From NCBI GenBank assembly GCA_019057975.1, contig JAHLWJ010000168.1, forward strand, positions 1 to 9,307: a stretch of 9,307 bases of DNA, read 5' to 3'. Positions 2 to 9,168 of the stretch are shown here, in pieces. The position numbers were made by a program, and so were the translations under genes. Source of the DNA: Promethearchaeota archaeon (GTDB lineage: Archaea > Asgardarchaeota > Lokiarchaeia > Sigynarchaeales > SOKP01). The notes below the pieces were generated by a model that saw only the letters and a list, made by a program, of their open reading frames with translations, was not told the DNA's origin and did not search any database. Each line of letters begins with the position of its first letter. Position 1 is the first letter of the stretch.

Positions 2-2230
2 TACACTGGAAATAGAGTTTATGCTCAGGAGAATGAACAGTTAGAAATAACAGACTTAAAATATCCGATGTATGAATATGCGGACAAAATTGACCAAGTA
101 AATAATACCCAATCAATTGGAATTGCTTTACCTTCAGACACATGGAATGTTACGAAATTTGAACTAAATTTTACCGATATAAAATTAGGAAGAGAGACAA
201 AAGAATTCGAGGTATATGATAGTGGTTTTAAAGTAATTGAAAAATTTGGTAAAGATTATGGATACGGTGTTCAAATCAATATCTCTGAACCTACAACTGT
301 TTATGGTACTTATATTTATGGTTTTAAAAATGAATACGCTGATAAAGTATTAAAAGTTCAAATCAATGGATACAATCCCGTGAAAAATGCTCCTAATGAT
401 ACAGTTTATGGTAATCCAACCACCCTTAATATAACTAAGAATTTGGGATGGTTTTATCAAAAATTTGAAAATCCAATTAATCTTTCAATTGGAAAATATT
501 TCTTAGTGGTTGATGGTTCAAATATATTTACAGCAGATGATAAATACTATTGGGGATATAATGCTTATGGTCAATTTTCAAATCTACACGTCTCAAGATA
601 TGATGGGTATACGTGGAGCGATGGAGTAAAGAATTCCACTCTATTATACAAATTAGTCCAAAACACTGAACAAATATATAATCCCCAAGAAATAAATATG
701 ACAATAGAAATCGAAAATACGTATTACAACATCTTGAATGGTATTAATAATGGAACTGGTTATGTTAAAATACCCAAATTAAACTATTCACCTAATACGA
801 ATCTTCTACAAATTCCAATTAAAAGCAACATTTCAGTAACACTTAATTTTAGTTATAGCTATTCTTTAAGGATAAAAAATAAATTTGATGCAGATGGCTC
901 TATGATTTTAGAATTAGATCAAGAAATTAAGTGGAGAATTGAACCCTTAATAAGTAGAATAGAGGGTAATTACTCAATTGAATTCTATTATCCCGACAAT
1001 TGGAATGACATAAAAATATACAGGAATGGTTTGGTTGTTAATTCAGAATTAAATGTTGTGATAAATACAGATGAAAAATATATTTATTTAGAAAGCGATA
1101 GTATCATAACTGGGGCAACTTGGTTGATAACAGCATTATCTTCTCAAGAAATATTAGACATAAACTTTCCTATTATAAAATTTGAACCTAATCAAGAACT
1201 AAGGTTTTCAATAGAATTACCTCAAGTTAACGGGAATGTTTCTTGGAGGTTGATTGACCCTTGGGATTTAGTAGAATTTTCTGATACAGAAGAGGTTAGT
1301 TCGATAATAATGACTTTTTCTTATCCAATTCCAGAAAACCCACACGAAGGAGATTATAAGGTTGTAATTTTTTGGTATAATGATCATAAGGCAAGTGTAG
1401 TTTCACAAGACATCAAAATAACTGTTGCATTTACTTTAAACCCTCAGTTTATTATTTTAATTGTAATAATTATAGGGATAGTTTCAACTGTTAGTGCCGG
1501 TTCATATATAACGATTAAAAGAGTTAGAAATAAAATTCGGCGAAATAGGAAAAATTTAGTAGGTAAATGTACGGATGTGTTTAGCATGAATTATTTTATG
1601 GTTATAGATAAGGAATCTGGACTATGTGTGTATGAAGAAAACTTTTCAGGTAAAAATATCGATTCTGCATTGATTTCTGGATTCTTAGATGCCATACGTT
1701 CATTTGGAATCGAACTAATAGGCTCTTATCAACAATCTAAGACAATTAGATTAGAATATAAAGATTCAAAAATACTAATGGTTGAGTTTAAGAATTTTAG
1801 GTTGGTATTTATAATGAAAGAGAATCCTTCTAATGATTTTTTAAAATCGATTACTGACTTATCTTATGAAATTGATGAAGAATACGGTCATCTCCTCTCA
1901 AATTTTAATAATGATGTTATGCCGTTTAAAGGGATAAAAATCCTTGTAAAAAAGCATTTAAACACCTTATTTTTAGCACCTTTAAGTGTTGTAGAGAATA
2001 AAAATATAAAATTAAATTCAGCAGAGAAAAATGAATATAATAGAGCATTGGATTTTATGAAGAAAAATTACCTGGATTATTTTTTTACGAGTTTTTTGTT
2101 AAATCAACATGAGTATGAAGCAAGTAAGATAAAAGCTATATTTAATTTAATTGAAAAAAATATATTTCAGCTTTATGATATTGAAAAGGTTAAAATTCCA
2201 AAAGCGAATAATGAAATAAATAAAAATTAA
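2..2230 (+). CDS. Partial single-pass membrane receptor-like protein with cytosolic longin-like domain
   Basis: The frame is open to the left edge, so the true start lies upstream. The first visible residues, YTGNRVYAQENEQ, look like the stretch just after a signal peptide. Numbering from the ATG at 68 (720 aa): residues 1-455 are a beta-rich ectodomain with 14 N-x-S/T sequons, whereas the ~230 residues after the membrane have about one. Residues ~60-198 look like a jelly-roll or carbohydrate-binding-like module (by eye only). A TM helix spans ~461-487 and is followed by a basic stop-transfer stretch (KRVRNKIRRNRK), giving an outside N-terminus. Residues ~508-625 have longin/roadblock order: two strands (NYFMVIDKESGLCVY), helix (DSALISGFLDAI), three strands, helix. 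A helical tail runs to 720. The GTPase gene follows after 13 bp. Inferred role: surface sensor or adhesin that recruits or regulates the GTPase through its tail. Confident of topology, moderate on the longin call, unsure of ligand. Confidence 0.85.
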   Translation, partial: YTGNRVYAQENEQLEITDLKYPMYEYADKIDQVNNTQSIGIALPSDTWNVTKFELNFTDIKLGRETKEFEVYDSGFKVIEKFGKDYGYGVQINISEPTTVYGTYIYGFKNEYADKVLKVQINGYNPVKNAPNDTVYGNPTTLNITKNLGWFYQKFENPINLSIGKYFLVVDGSNIFTADDKYYWGYNAYGQFSNLHVSRYDGYTWSDGVKNSTLLYKLVQNTEQIYNPQEINMTIEIENTYYNILNGINNGTGYVKIPKLNYSPNTNLLQIPIKSNISVTLNFSYSYSLRIKNKFDADGSMILELDQEIKWRIEPLISRIEGNYSIEFYYPDNWNDIKIYRNGLVVNSELNVVINTDEKYIYLESDSIITGATWLITALSSQEILDINFPIIKFEPNQELRFSIELPQVNGNVSWRLIDPWDLVEFSDTEEVSSIIMTFSYPIPENPHEGDYKVVIFWYNDHKASVVSQDIKITVAFTLNPQFIILIVIIIGIVSTVSAGSYITIKRVRNKIRRNRKNLVGKCTDVFSMNYFMVIDKESGLCVYEENFSGKNIDSALISGFLDAIRSFGIELIGSYQQSKTIRLEYKDSKILMVEFKNFRLVFIMKENPSNDFLKSITDLSYEIDEEYGHLLSNFNNDVMPFKGIKILVKKHLNTLFLAPLSVVENKNIKLNSAEKNEYNRALDFMKKNYLDYFFTSFLLNQHEYEASKIKAIFNLIEKNIFQLYDIEKVKIPKANNEINKN

Positions 2231-2243
2231 AAAGGTTTGAAAA

Positions 2244-2786
2244 TTGGGAGATAAGAATAGCAAAATTCTGATATTAGGCTTGGATAACTGTGGGAAAACT
2301 ACTATTTTATTGAGTTTAAAAGAAGAAACCAATCTATTATCTTATTTATCTTTAAAACCAACCAGGGGCGTAAACATTGAGCAATTCCAAGAGAACAATT
2401 TTAATATATATGTGTGGGATTTTGGAGGTCAAAAAGAATACCGCTCAGATTACATTACAAATTTTGCTAAGTATATAAAAAAAGTAGATGAAATTCTATA
2501 TATTATTGATGTTCAAGACTATAATAGATATAATCAAGCGTTAAAATACTTAGAGGATATCATAAAGTCTATAGAACAAGAAGAAAAAATTATTGAATTG
2601 TCTATATTCTTACACAAATATGATCCAAACTTGAAAAATAAAGCTGAATTTAAAGATATTGACGAAAAAATAAATGTTTTGATAAATAAACAAATTTTTA
2701 ATTTAATCCCTGCTAAATTTAAGTTTAGAATTTACAGATCCAGCGTATATACATTATTTGAGAAGAATTTAATATTTTCAAATTAA
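2244..2786 (+). CDS. Arf/Rag-like small GTPase
   Basis: A 180-aa Ras-superfamily G domain. Motifs seen: G1 GLDNCGKT (12-19); switch I PTRGVNIE (39-46), close to the Arf PTIGFNVE pattern; G3 WDFGGQ (58-63) with the catalytic-type Gln present; G4 HKYD (124-127), where Arf and Ras have NKxD and Rag/Gtr proteins have HKxD; a weak G5 around SSVY (166-169). It should bind and hydrolyse GTP as a switch. The protein ends only ~15 residues after G5, so helix alpha-5 is short. No C-terminal prenylation box is seen. The start is TTG at 2244: an in-frame TGA sits at 2238, no ATG precedes G1, and AAAGGT lies 7 bases upstream. It is 13 bp after the membrane protein gene and 21 bp before the longin-like gene, so it is co-transcribed with both. 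Its frame continues open into the next gene after its TAA. Arf-like versus Rag-like placement needs a tree; GTPase identity is secure. Confidence 0.93.
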   Translation: MGDKNSKILILGLDNCGKTTILLSLKEETNLLSYLSLKPTRGVNIEQFQENNFNIYVWDFGGQKEYRSDYITNFAKYIKKVDEILYIIDVQDYNRYNQALKYLEDIIKSIEQEEKIIELSIFLHKYDPNLKNKAEFKDIDEKINVLINKQIFNLIPAKFKFRIYRSSVYTLFEKNLIFSN

Positions 2787-2791
2787 AGGAG
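2785..2791 (+). promoter_or_regulatory. Shine-Dalgarno-like AAAGGAG with a long spacer
   Basis: AAAGGAG overlaps the stop codon of the GTPase gene and lies 16 bases before the ATG at 2808, which is longer than usual. A weaker GGT sits at 2801-2803, four bases from the ATG. No other in-frame start exists between the TAA at 2784 and the ATG. The overlap with the stop would suit translational coupling. Confidence 0.4.
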
Positions 2792-2807
2792 TACTATCAC
2801 GGTAAAT

Positions 2808-3200
2808 ATGAGTAATATCAGCAGTATTTATATAATAGATAATAAGGAAACCCCTATTTTCACTTTAGAGATACATAAACAAGGTTCAAATGCAATTAAT
2901 AAGTCCCTATTATCTCATTTTATTTATTCCTTACAATCTATTGCTTCACAAATGGAAAGCGATGAGGGTCGAGTAATAAAGATTGGTAATGAAAATTATT
3001 TTATTATAAAAGATTCAATAATTAATTTTAAGTATATAATCGAATATGGCAATGAGACCACATTTGACCAAATATCCCTAATCTTAAATAAAATTAAACA
3101 AAAATTTATTGAAAGTTTTGAGGGCAAATTAGATTTGCCAGTATCAATGAAAATCGAGCTTGTAGCTTCATTAAAAGAGTATATCTTAAACATTATTTAA
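2808..3200 (+). CDS. Small longin/roadblock-like domain protein
   Basis: A 130-aa soluble protein with no TM segment or signal peptide. Element order fits a longin/roadblock fold: two strands (SIYIIDNKETPIFTLEI, 6-22), a helix (NKSLLSHFIYSLQSIASQM, 31-49), three strands (RVIKIGNENYFIIKD, 55-69, then FKYIIEYG), a helix (FDQISLILNKIKQKFIESF, 86-104), and a final amphipathic helix. The same elements occur in the same order in the cytosolic tail of the membrane protein two genes upstream. Such domains act as dimerising platforms or regulators for small GTPases (Rag C-terminal domains, Ragulator, Mon1-Ccz1), so a role with the adjacent GTPase is likely but inferred. It lies in the GTPase's frame, with only TAA 2784-2786 and seven sense codons between them. 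ATG 2808 is the only ordinary start. The fold call is by eye and needs a profile search. Confidence 0.78.
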   Translation: MSNISSIYIIDNKETPIFTLEIHKQGSNAINKSLLSHFIYSLQSIASQMESDEGRVIKIGNENYFIIKDSIINFKYIIEYGNETTFDQISLILNKIKQKFIESFEGKLDLPVSMKIELVASLKEYILNII

Positions 3201-3239: not shown

Positions 3240-3252
3240 TTTTTTTTTTTTT
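3240..3252 (+). terminator. Poly-T terminator of the receptor-GTPase operon
   Basis: Thirteen consecutive T lie 40 bases after the stop of the last operon gene and before the convergent RCK gene. T-rich tracts are the usual intrinsic termination signal for archaeal RNA polymerase. In the opposite direction, a six-T run (3278 down to 3273 on the minus strand) is a weaker candidate end for the RCK gene. Confidence 0.65.
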
Positions 3253-3299: not shown

Positions 3300-4451
3300 T
3301 TATTTAGAACAAATTGCTGAATCGGGTGCAACTTCTTTTTGAAGCATTTTAAACGCGTTGCTAGATGTTGAAAAGGTTTTTGCATTGTATTTTTCTACCA
3401 AGTCTATGAGTTCTTCATCAAAAATTCGCACAAATACCTCAATATGAGGATAACGAGAATTTAGCTTTGATGCTAGATAAAGAGATTCATCGAATTCAGA
3501 TTCACGTTTCCAGCAAATAAATGCTTGGGTAATTTCATCTAAATTTACATGAGAACGTAGATCACTTAAAAAATAAGCTAATTCATTGATAATATGTAAT
3601 CGTTCATTGACCACAAATTCAATACCATCATGCTCATCGTCAAAAAGAAAAGCTTCGCGCTCTGGTTGCAGAGAGAGGTTATAAGCAATTCGATGGGTTA
3701 AATAATCACGTCCTATCACAATCGCATTACCAGTTTTATCTCTCGTCCATTCTTGGATGCCATCCATCGCCCATTTTGATGTAGAAAATGAAAATGCGTT
3801 TAATGGGGTTTGTCTAAGATACTCTTGCACATGATCTTCGAATGCACGGACATATATCGAGCATTCATCATTCATTTTACGAACTTTTTCTGTACAAATT
3901 ATCGCTATCCTAACGTCATCTATAGTAATAAATACCTCTTTCGCGTTTTTTACATTTGCGAATTCTAGGTTAGTTGTTTCAGTAGGATCTCCAACAACTA
4001 CTGGTTTTCCAATACTAATTAAATCTTCTACTAATTCATGGTGATCCTCTATAAGACTAAAAGATTCTTTATTTGCGATGCAATATTCTACTATTCTCTC
4101 AGAAAGATGTTGATAACCTATAACAACTATATGATTTCGTTGGTGTCGAGCGAGAATTCTACTCGTAATAAGAGGATTATACTTTTGCAACAATTCACCC
4201 ATGATAAATCCAAAAAAAATCACTTCCAGTAAAATAGGCCATATTAAGGCATAAAACTTGGCTAAATCACCTGCATCCATGGGAGAACGTACCGTTAAGG
4301 AATATATGAATATTTCTCCTAAACTATCACCGGATTCTGTAAAAAAGAAAAATAGAAAACCTGCGAACCAAAATAAGAAGAAAAATAAAAACTGCAATCT
4401 GTATTGCTTAAGTTTCAAATGGATTTCAATAAAAAAGTTTATTAAACTCAT
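3300..4451 (-). CDS. Two-TM protein with tandem RCK/TrkA-N-like domains, no selectivity filter
   Basis: 383 aa. TM1 (~21-38) and TM2 (~64-86) flank a loop, and two Rossmann-like RCK domains follow: the first at ~105-235 (HIVVIG, acidic ED at 135-136 ending beta-2, VVVGDPTE at 151-158) and the second at ~241-380 (NAIVIG, DDEH at 271-274). This is the layout of MthK- and Kch-type potassium channels or their regulators. However, the loop that should carry TVGYGD reads SLTVRSPMDAGD (51-62). In the first RCK domain the glycine motif GxGxxG is degenerate (GYQHLS), so NAD binding is doubtful. It may be a channel of changed selectivity, a membrane-bound regulatory subunit, or a non-conducting sensor. 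ATG 4451 is the only good start; an ATG 17 bases upstream is out of frame. It faces the operon tail-to-tail and diverges from the flavoprotein gene. Family call strong, activity uncertain. Confidence 0.85.
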   Translation of the reverse strand: MSLINFFIEIHLKLKQYRLQFLFFFLFWFAGFLFFFFTESGDSLGEIFIYSLTVRSPMDAGDLAKFYALIWPILLEVIFFGFIMGELLQKYNPLITSRILARHQRNHIVVIGYQHLSERIVEYCIANKESFSLIEDHHELVEDLISIGKPVVVGDPTETTNLEFANVKNAKEVFITIDDVRIAIICTEKVRKMNDECSIYVRAFEDHVQEYLRQTPLNAFSFSTSKWAMDGIQEWTRDKTGNAIVIGRDYLTHRIAYNLSLQPEREAFLFDDEHDGIEFVVNERLHIINELAYFLSDLRSHVNLDEITQAFICWKRESEFDESLYLASKLNSRYPHIEVFVRIFDEELIDLVEKYNAKTFSTSSNAFKMLQKEVAPDSAICSK

Positions 4452-8240: not shown

Positions 8241-8999
8241 TCACAAATTATCAAGAAAGTTTTGAGTAAGTTTTTTATTTATTCTCCTTATGGTTTCTGA
8301 AAGTGCAGATGGAGATATTTGAAGCTTTTTAGCGAAATGGGTTAAGGAGATCTTTCTTGGTATCTCAAAATAACCAAATTTATATGCTTTCTTGAGAATC
8401 TCTTTCTGTTTCTTAGTCAATATGACTTTTTTTTGATAATAACCAATACTCCGAATGTCTACTTGAATTCCTCGTTTTTCTAGTTCATTTAAAAAGTGGT
8501 CAATTTTTTTTCGCTCAGCGATTATATCTACATTCAGTTTAGCATCCTTTACAATTATCGGATATGTAAATAGTAATTCTGTTTTTATTAAAGTATTCAA
8601 AACCCAAGGGTCATCTTCTTTAACATTTATTATAATAAAATCATTTCCTGAAAAAAGAATTTGCTGGGAAAGAGCTAATTTATTGTGTTTTAAATCAGAA
8701 TTAAAATCTTCAATATTTAGCCCTTCTATTTGGAGCAATAAAATCCCTTCATTTCTATCTAAAAGATAATTTGAAAGAATTTTAAAAACTAAATTAGGGT
8801 AATTTCTATTTATCTGAGCAAGCCATTTACTTCTTGGAATTGATATTCTTAATTTTACATAGACAACATCTTCGACGCGAAAGGTAACTTCATACTCAAA
8901 ATGTAAAAACTCGTTAGCTAAGAATGGAAAATTTGTTACAGTTGATATCCAATCGGTGATTTTTAAATATATGTTGAATAAAAAGGTGAGAGGGTACAT
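8241..8999 (-). CDS. HTH_10 (Bat-type) transcriptional regulator with doubtful N-terminus
   Basis: The C-terminus (193-246) is a HTH_10 domain: LTKKQKEILKKAYKFGYFEI, then ISLTHFAKKLQISPSALSE as turn and recognition helix. The middle (~44-190) resembles the alpha/beta sensory part of haloarchaeal bacterio-opsin-activator relatives (VVYVKLRISIPRSKW, then a 140-190 alpha/beta segment). It likely binds DNA and responds to an unknown cue. No cysteine or histidine metal cluster is visible. The only in-frame ATG is at 8999, and no early GTG or TTG is present. Residues 1-39 are encoded antisense to a dehydrogenase remnant, so they are probably not ancestral. The native start may be lost or non-canonical near 8880-8940; a TATA-like TATATTTAAA lies inside the first codons (about 8960-8970). 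It sits 82 bp upstream of the co-oriented exchanger gene, but that gene has its own promoter. Confidence 0.8.
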   Translation of the reverse strand: MYPLTFLFNIYLKITDWISTVTNFPFLANEFLHFEYEVTFRVEDVVYVKLRISIPRSKWLAQINRNYPNLVFKILSNYLLDRNEGILLLQIEGLNIEDFNSDLKHNKLALSQQILFSGNDFIIINVKEDDPWVLNTLIKTELLFTYPIIVKDAKLNVDIIAERKKIDHFLNELEKRGIQVDIRSIGYYQKKVILTKKQKEILKKAYKFGYFEIPRKISLTHFAKKLQISPSALSETIRRINKKLTQNFLDNL

Positions 9000-9168
9000 G
9001 GGTAATGTTGTTGCTGAAAAACTTGATCATCTCAGAGATCTCATTGAAGCCGGAAAGATTAAATCAGTTGTTGATAAAGTTTATCCATTGAGCCAGATTA
9101 CCGAGGCTCATAGACATTATGAAGAAGGTCATCCAAGAGGAAAAATTGTGATAAGCTTGCAAGAGTAA
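8881..9168 (+). pseudogene. 3' remnant of a medium-chain dehydrogenase/quinone reductase gene
   Basis: The open frame after a TAG at 8860 encodes the C-terminal ~95 residues of an MDR-superfamily protein of ~320-340 aa. Recognisable parts: YSKCKNSLAKNGKFVTVD (from 8893), the end of the Rossmann region; KKVRGYM; LRDLIEAGKIKSVVDKVYPL; EAHRHYEEGHPRGKIVIS, the family's ending, then TAA at 9166-9168. The first ~230 codons, with the cofactor glycine motif, are missing. Upstream of ~8881 the DNA codes for the HTH_10 regulator on the other strand. Internal GTG 8956, ATG 8971 and ATG 8998 could start short products; ATG 8998 has AAAAGGTGAG just upstream, giving 56 aa. Such a piece cannot be an active enzyme. 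A read in the next frame at 8871-8885 (FDAKG) hints the homology may go a little further through a frameshift, but this is weak. Confidence 0.75.

Follow-up and report, generated by a model that had tools for sequence, protein, structure and literature searches.

The stretch analysed here, referred to as the window, comprises 9,307 nucleotides of DNA from Lokiarchaea, archaeal relatives of the eukaryotes (contig JAHLWJ010000168.1, assembly GCA_019057975.1), and its first part carries a cassette of three genes that encode, in order, a membrane receptor, a small GTPase and a protein of 130 amino acids (aa) (Table 1). The GTPase gene starts with TTG, and the spacers of 13 and 21 bp and the closing T run that had been reported in the initial annotation were found as stated. 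A terminator scan detected no stem-loop at the T run, and matches to sigma-70-like promoters were near chance (35 against 29.3 expected, standard deviation 5.5). Chance open reading frames (ORFs) were ruled out, because the ratios of non-synonymous to synonymous substitution (dN/dS) against the related locus L001 are ~0.37, 0.23 and 0.23 for the receptor, the GTPase and the 130-aa protein, respectively.

Table 1. Positions in the window of the cassette genes, their domains and two further features.
Feature	Position	Strand	Basis
Receptor gene from codon 23 to codon 764 (codons 1-22 outside the window)	2..2230	+	ORF list, full-length relative P0001, AlphaFold2 (AF2)
Ectodomain, residues 33-500, beta-rich and sequon-rich	32..1435	+	
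Single membrane helix, about residues 503-525; cytoplasmic side basic	1442..1510	+	Hydropathy scan, AF2 helix 503-550
Tail longin domain, residues 551-655, order b-b-a-b-b-b-a	1586..1900	+	AF2 secondary structure; profile match to stand-alone longins
Tail C-terminal part, mostly helical, perhaps winged-helix-like (by eye)	1901..2191	+	AF2
Rag/Arf-like small GTPase, 180 aa, G domain only	2244..2786	+	Pfam matches, fold match, alignment of relatives
Stand-alone longin, 130 aa	2808..3200	+	Predicted fold, fold and profile matches
13-T run downstream of the cassette, possibly an archaeal terminator	3240..3252	+	Starts 40 bp past the last stop
Two-helix TrkA-N protein gene, next after the cassette	3300..4451	-	
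70-aa ORF, gene remnant adjoining an HTH_10 regulator	8956..9168	+	Similarity restricted to the ~50 C-terminal residues of zinc-binding dehydrogenases (PF13602, E 3e-15)

The N-terminus of the receptor, for which extension upstream of the window had been advised, was obtained from P0001, a protein of 764 aa that is reported as 100% identical to the window receptor, yet differs from it in at least one residue. The missing 22 aa (MKMFKK...VYAQ) form, as judged by eye, a Sec-type signal peptide, and the full receptor of 764 aa is made up of this peptide, the ectodomain, one membrane helix and a cytoplasmic tail. Beyond the signal peptide, the hydropathy scan showed a single membrane helix, followed by KRVRNKIRRNRK. 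The ectodomain includes 15 N-glycosylation sequons against 5.8 expected, a number reached in 0 of 2000 shuffles, and in 86 aligned relatives the mean is 17.8 against 7.4 expected for the ectodomain and 1.15 against 1.55 expected for the tail; the ectodomain is probably N-glycosylated. No Pfam model matched the receptor at E≤1. The AF2 model of the receptor was built from 86 sequences (mean predicted local distance difference test score, pLDDT, 84; predicted template modelling score, pTM, 0.51). Ectodomain residues 85-243 match a phage baseplate protein, and residues 403-498 correspond to an MG2/Ig-like domain. As compared with the closest relative, L004, the receptor has a dN/dS of ~0.9 (dN 0.041, dS 0.045), a fast change not seen in the GTPase (~0.27; 0.014 and 0.052) or the 130-aa protein (~0.23; 0.016 and 0.069), and the outer protein may therefore be changing fast.

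The predicted topology of the 130-aa protein, b-b-a-b-b-b-a-a, is that of a longin, and the protein matches solved longins structurally across most of its length. The fold matches include Vamp7, zeta-COP, sigma-adaptin, Fuzzy, Bet5 and MON1, and also SRX-SR-beta, TRAPP, MglB and Ragulator chains. When a profile of 28 relatives was compared with the PDB, VAMP7 (E 7.7e-4), BET5 (1.3e-3), a TRAPP subunit (4.1e-3) and MON1 (8.8e-3) were matched, and unrelated chains began at E 0.07. Among the same 28 relatives, Pfam matches were obtained to Sybindin (8), Fuz_longin_1 (5), Longin (4) and Robl_LC7 (4); the 130-aa protein alone matched only Sybindin at E≤1 (E 0.014, below the curated cut-off).

A longin is also found in the cytoplasmic tail of the receptor. 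In the full-length AF2 model, the strands (E) and helices (H) of the tail, E551-558, E564-569, H577-589, E602-608, E611-618, E621-627 and H633-655, follow one another in the longin order, with pLDDT of 44-86 depending on the block. Comparison by hhalign of a profile of 91 tails with one of 42 stand-alone longins gave a probability of 97.45% over 94 columns (E 9e-12 for one comparison); the score of 71.1 compares with a peak of 19.7 in 60 column shuffles and with 10.7 for the reversed alignment. Cleaned sets of 74 tails and 17 longins, from which any tail with a longin or GTPase neighbour and any longin with a neighbouring tail had been removed, still matched at 97.16% (E 4.5e-11), and two separately built alignments, A7 and A6, at 97.3%, against 0.05% for A7 and the GTPase. 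Smaller sets of 60 tails and 19 longins gave 16-46%, which is only suggestive, and other pairs remained below 5% except for two GTPase sets. On these profile comparisons, the tail longin and the free longin are homologous. A roadblock identity for the tail was rejected, as its profile matched that of 27 Lokiarchaeal roadblock proteins (29 proteins from 30 loci, less two of >170 aa) at <0.1%; the longin and roadblock profiles matched at 9-43%, a range not surprising for related folds. Among the matches listed in fold searches with the complete receptor, which are filled by ectodomain matches, none was a longin for the tail. The longin-like region had been placed at residues 506-720, and of this only about 551-655 proved to be longin, the last ~95 tail residues constituting a separate, conserved small helical domain. 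The latter is winged-helix-like by eye.

The GTPase matches Arf (E 3.3e-26) and Gtr1_RagA (E 2.1e-20) in Pfam, and its motifs are G1 (2277-2300), G3 WDFGGQ (2415-2432) and G4 HKYD (2613-2624). In 34 relatives G1, G3 with its Gln and HKxD, a Rag signature, are kept, and H124, K125 and D127 are invariant. The closest solved chains are 8yl2 (LokiRagO) and 8zla ('GTP-binding protein'), after which a miniGq construct and Arl3 rank. However, the 180-aa protein stops after the G domain and so has no C-terminal roadblock-type domain of Rag, and its G domain starts within the first residues, leaving no N-terminal amphipathic helix of Arf. N-myristoylation at MGDKNS was considered and rejected, since Gly2 is not kept in relatives; no membrane anchor is seen in the GTPase. 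The description of the cassette as encoding a single-pass surface protein with a sequon-rich ectodomain, an Arf/Rag-like GTPase and a longin/roadblock-like protein is thus borne out, the last of these being a longin.

Relatives at E≤1e-3 numbered 166 for the receptor (among the best 7991 candidates scored), 14 for the 130-aa protein and 165 for the GTPase. The window receptor is 91% identical to that of L004 (Candidatus Lokiarchaeia ABR03 MAG, metagenome-assembled genome) and 73-75% identical to those of L001, L002 and L003, of which the close orthologue L003 was left out owing to unread bases (N). In 48 receptor loci and the window, the receptor-GTPase-longin order was found in L001, L002, L004, L036, L042 and L047 as well as the window, and the L034 contig ends inside the GTPase gene. 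The window, L001, L002 and L004 all have 21 bp between the GTPase and longin genes. The tail tree (63 rows) groups the window with its relatives (4 rows, support 100/99) and L036, L042, L034 and L047 together (83/89, a group that includes two tail-longin pairs), and does not decide between a single and a multiple origin of the triple. The gene order is therefore conserved in six relatives beyond the window, at identities down to 32-52%, though within one receptor subgroup only. Neither outcome named in the initial annotation as refuting, absence of a longin/roadblock fold or of a conserved order, was obtained, the tail having been examined as part of the whole-receptor model. The order could in principle reflect mere neighbourhood, in which three unrelated surface and cytoplasmic genes are held together by inheritance, and the TrkA-N gene that follows the cassette is indeed common to the window, L004, L001 and L002 (72-96% identity). 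However, it is not found in L036 and L042, which keep the triple at 32-52% identity while their next genes match no compared flank; moreover, tail-longin and GTPase-longin pairs also occur separately, and tail and longin are homologous domains. Simple co-inheritance is accordingly a highly improbable account of the cassette.

The separate pairs were found in a survey of 83 genomes of the class, in which the genome counts are lower bounds; in the accompanying searches, among them that for the tail, a capped number of candidates was scored per genome. Of 23 longin places at E≤1e-11, seven lie in a triple (G001, G002, G004, G006, G007, G034, and G035, where it is split over two contig ends), three adjoin a tail receptor with no GTPase of the cassette family between (G030, G040, G049) and five adjoin a GTPase (G009, G012 twice, G036, G078), one of the G012 places starting inside the GTPase gene so that its upstream gene is not visible. 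Six of the 23 places had seeded the profile, and nine of the other 17 have a partner. By rough arithmetic, with a density of roughly one cassette-type GTPase and four tails in 3.7 Mb, far fewer than one neighbour within 500 bp would be expected by chance. Among 150 tail places listed, 10 adjoin such a longin and seven such a GTPase, and the three-gene order was therefore rejected as a rule for the whole receptor family. Linkage is modular, and the cassette is a special case within a large receptor family, not a general Asgard operon.

A GTPase-longin place in G025, missed by the genome survey and found with the longin profile, brings to five the genomes in which this pair occurs without the receptor. 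Such pairs suit a model in which GTPase and longin are the two pieces, encoded by split genes, of a Rag-like cytoplasmic switch that has the receptor as one of several clients. This model is also favoured by a Foldseek match of the longin to LokiRagO 8yl2 (E 1.2e-3, rank 31), by the C-terminal domain carried by GTPase relatives of about 320 aa, and by Asgard Arf-like GTPase-longin fusions described in passages of published work (PMC4917890, PMC10933270). Eight genomes each encode 9-17 GTPase relatives at E≤1e-15, many in open frames of 310-500 aa. However, the C-termini of 23 Rag-like relatives of 318 aa matched the longin and tail profiles at 9-11% at best, the extra domains of relatives of ~415 and ~485 aa matched them at <2%, and fusion ('Rosetta') evidence linking the GTPase to longin or tail was thus not provided by these comparisons. 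As tail-longin pairs also exist without a GTPase of the cassette family, the two-piece switch is considered unlikely.

Longin and roadblock domains commonly pair and bind small GTPases. Given that two homologous longins are encoded in one cluster, one of them fixed in the membrane, and that the GTPase is anchor-less, a membrane-fixed longin pair is suggested. The cassette would then be a membrane-anchored unit for GTPase control, in which the pair formed by the tail longin and the free longin recruits and regulates the GTPase; we place the probability of this reading at roughly one half. The signal peptide would send the ectodomain outside, and the helix would fix the receptor in the cell membrane. 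By analogy with longin and roadblock domains elsewhere, the free longin would pair with the tail longin, and the pair would offer a docking and regulatory surface, either guanine nucleotide exchange factor-like or GTPase-activating protein-like, to a GTPase that consists of a G domain only. Binding of a ligand, a surface or a neighbouring cell by the ectodomain would shift GTPase recruitment or nucleotide state at that site. What was seen in the initial annotation is confirmed, its interpretation is right in its component parts, and the signalling mechanism that it put forward is plausible.

Several observations weigh against this reading. PDB searches with the tail profiles returned no meaningful match, and in Pfam these profiles gave no significant longin for the receptors; the window tail matches no Pfam longin, one of 60 tails matches Intu_longin_1 weakly (0.063), and one of 30 tail-type proteins, a free-standing protein in L257, matches the same model at 2.2e-4, below the cut-off. 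Eight of the 23 longin places adjoin neither partner, and of the 150 listed tail places 140 lack a neighbouring longin of this type and 143 a neighbouring GTPase of this family. Part of the conserved order may be plain inheritance, as the next gene (TrkA-N) is also kept in four orthologues. Finally, L047 is a single 4.1-kb contig that could be misassembled.

In L047, tail (213/231, 92%), GTPase (165/185) and longin (127/147) residues are identical to those of L042, and none of the ectodomains compared matches that of L047 significantly (best E 0.067). If the contig is correctly assembled, the conserved unit is tail, GTPase and longin, with a replaceable outer part as in receptors. Differing ectodomains on one tail, together with Ig-like and phage-baseplate-like domains that fit adhesion, would also agree with an inside-out model, in which the receptor serves in adhesion or as cargo, and its placement, clustering or packing into vesicles or protrusions is decided by the GTPase with its longin, much as Arf acts with small longin-fold coat subunits on membrane cargo; signalling by the ectodomain is not required. 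Besides Vamp7, the longin indeed matches chains of zeta-COP and sigma-adaptin. However, the tail is itself a longin domain and not a short sorting peptide, and no coat-like large subunits were seen beside the genes, although none were looked for. This model appears rather unlikely, though it deserves consideration beside receptor-controlled GTPase regulation.

Of the genomes searched, at least 78 of the 83 from the class and 108 of the 227 from the phylum encode the tail domain, which is carried by proteins of ~750 aa and by many others of 1100-2300 aa. In a set of twenty tail-bearing proteins or fragments (L223-L242), none matches the receptor ectodomain profile at E≤1, and the domain also occurs on a TPR (tetratricopeptide repeat)-like protein and free-standing in L257. 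Ras-family GTPase genes accompany the tail-longin pair in two genomes, with two ahead of it in G030 (Ras E 2.2e-35 and 1.4e-31) and one facing it in G040 (5e-43). The receptor-longin pair may serve different GTPases. More broadly, and only as a tentative and somewhat doubtful proposal, Lokiarchaea and relatives would possess a class of single-pass receptors with a longin output domain and interchangeable ectodomains on a conserved tail. By pairing with free longins, the tail longin would give rise to exchange platforms under receptor control that serve Rag/Arf-like and Ras/Rab-like GTPases. Such platforms would be pre-eukaryotic relatives of Mon1-Ccz1-type pairs and would constitute a prokaryotic principle of transmembrane signalling beside kinases and chemoreceptors.

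Other arrangements were noted near tails and related GTPases. At L228:7341-8425 (-), beside one of the longin-tailed receptors of 1100-1340 aa, an Arf-like GTPase (E 6e-18) and a ~186-aa protein, by eye a longin plus winged helix, are encoded by genes overlapping by 4 bp, with similar layouts in L224, L225, L227 and L229-L232. The free-standing tail-type longin at L257:4696-5151 (-) faces a G-only GTPase and matches the INTU/CCZ1/HPS4 first-longin model (E 3.3e-4, below cut-off), and a 634-aa protein at L257:581-2485 (-) ends in a tail-type longin with a weak Fuz_longin_1 match (0.023). Upstream of a longin-tailed receptor, L020:2186-5873 (+) encodes a ~647-aa TPR protein with an end that is longin-like by eye and a Ras-family GTPase (E 1.3e-42); L020 also has a second small GTPase, and L026 and L044 are laid out similarly. 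L057:250-1152 (-), near a G-only GTPase, encodes a response-regulator receiver (E 2e-25) whose C-terminal half is longin-like by eye, and a MASE3/PAS histidine kinase is the back-to-back neighbour of a GTPase-longin pair at L247:1377-5570. Sister G-domain-only GTPases flanked by an ORF of ~110 aa and a membrane protein with several helices represent a second sensor-GTPase cassette (L054, L055, L058, L059, L115, L118, L120-L124, L126-L131); among those scanned, the ORFs encode an ArsR-type helix-turn-helix (L054, L059, L118, L122) and the membrane proteins are MASE3/PAS sensors (L054, L118, L122, L129).

Asgard genomes encode dozens of small GTPases with jobs and regulators that are, to our knowledge, unknown. 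The cassette names one such GTPase together with a probable longin partner and the membrane protein that the two would serve, and suggests a simple way in which a surface protein and a membrane GTPase could control each other. Its proteins are small enough to express, so that tail-longin binding, binding of the pair to the GTPase and nucleotide exchange are directly testable, and through the wider family of longin-tailed receptors the surface of archaeal cells would be connected with GTPases of eukaryotic type.

Fusions of Asgard GTPases to longin or roadblock domains are described by Tran et al. 2024 (PMC10933270), according to whom MK-D1 GTPase genes are generally not in operons with longin or roadblock genes and genome layout hampers the matching of GTPases to regulators; a term search of its main text found neither 'transmembrane' nor 'receptor'. 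A passage of Dey et al. 2016 (PMC4917890) counts 41 longin-like domains in Loki, five of them fused to Arf-like GTPases, and asks whether operons will reveal GTPase targets. These fusions, as described there, share the GTPase class, the adaptor fold and the Lokiarchaeal source with the cassette, which differs in having separate longin and GTPase genes and a receptor with its own longin. Searches of open-licence literature yielded no description of a longin-bearing transmembrane receptor from Asgard archaea, which is not proof of absence. The ArvABC vesiculation operon of Haloferax, as far as it is described in parts of PMC10927574, is likewise an archaeal three-gene unit of a small GTPase and two conserved partners; however, the partners are DUF2073 and DUF2072, with neither receptor nor longin, and these families are absent from the cassette (Pfam at E≤1: none for the receptor, Sybindin only for the 130-aa protein).

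Among eukaryotic systems, the signal recognition particle receptor (SR-alpha/SR-beta) resembles the cassette in that a longin (SRX) is bound to an Arf-like GTPase at a membrane, and SRX-SR-beta is among the fold matches. In SR the membrane anchor is on the GTPase and no ectodomain receptor is known, whereas in the cassette the anchor is on the longin. Ragulator-Rag and MglA-MglB, both also among the fold matches of the longin, provide membrane platforms of roadblock/longin type on which a small GTPase is held or regulated; they differ in using roadblock instead of longin domains and in having no receptor, and the C-terminal domain of Rag is absent from the cassette GTPase. In Mon1-Ccz1, Fuzzy-Inturned and TRAPP, a small GTPase is acted on by two paired longins. 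Matches of the free longin include Fuzzy, Bet5 and MON1, five of its 28 relatives match Fuz_longin_1, and the L257 tail-type protein matches Intu_longin_1, albeit below cut-off. However, these are multidomain cytosolic or peripheral complexes that act on Rabs, whereas the cassette joins a receptor-tail longin with a Rag/Arf-like GTPase.

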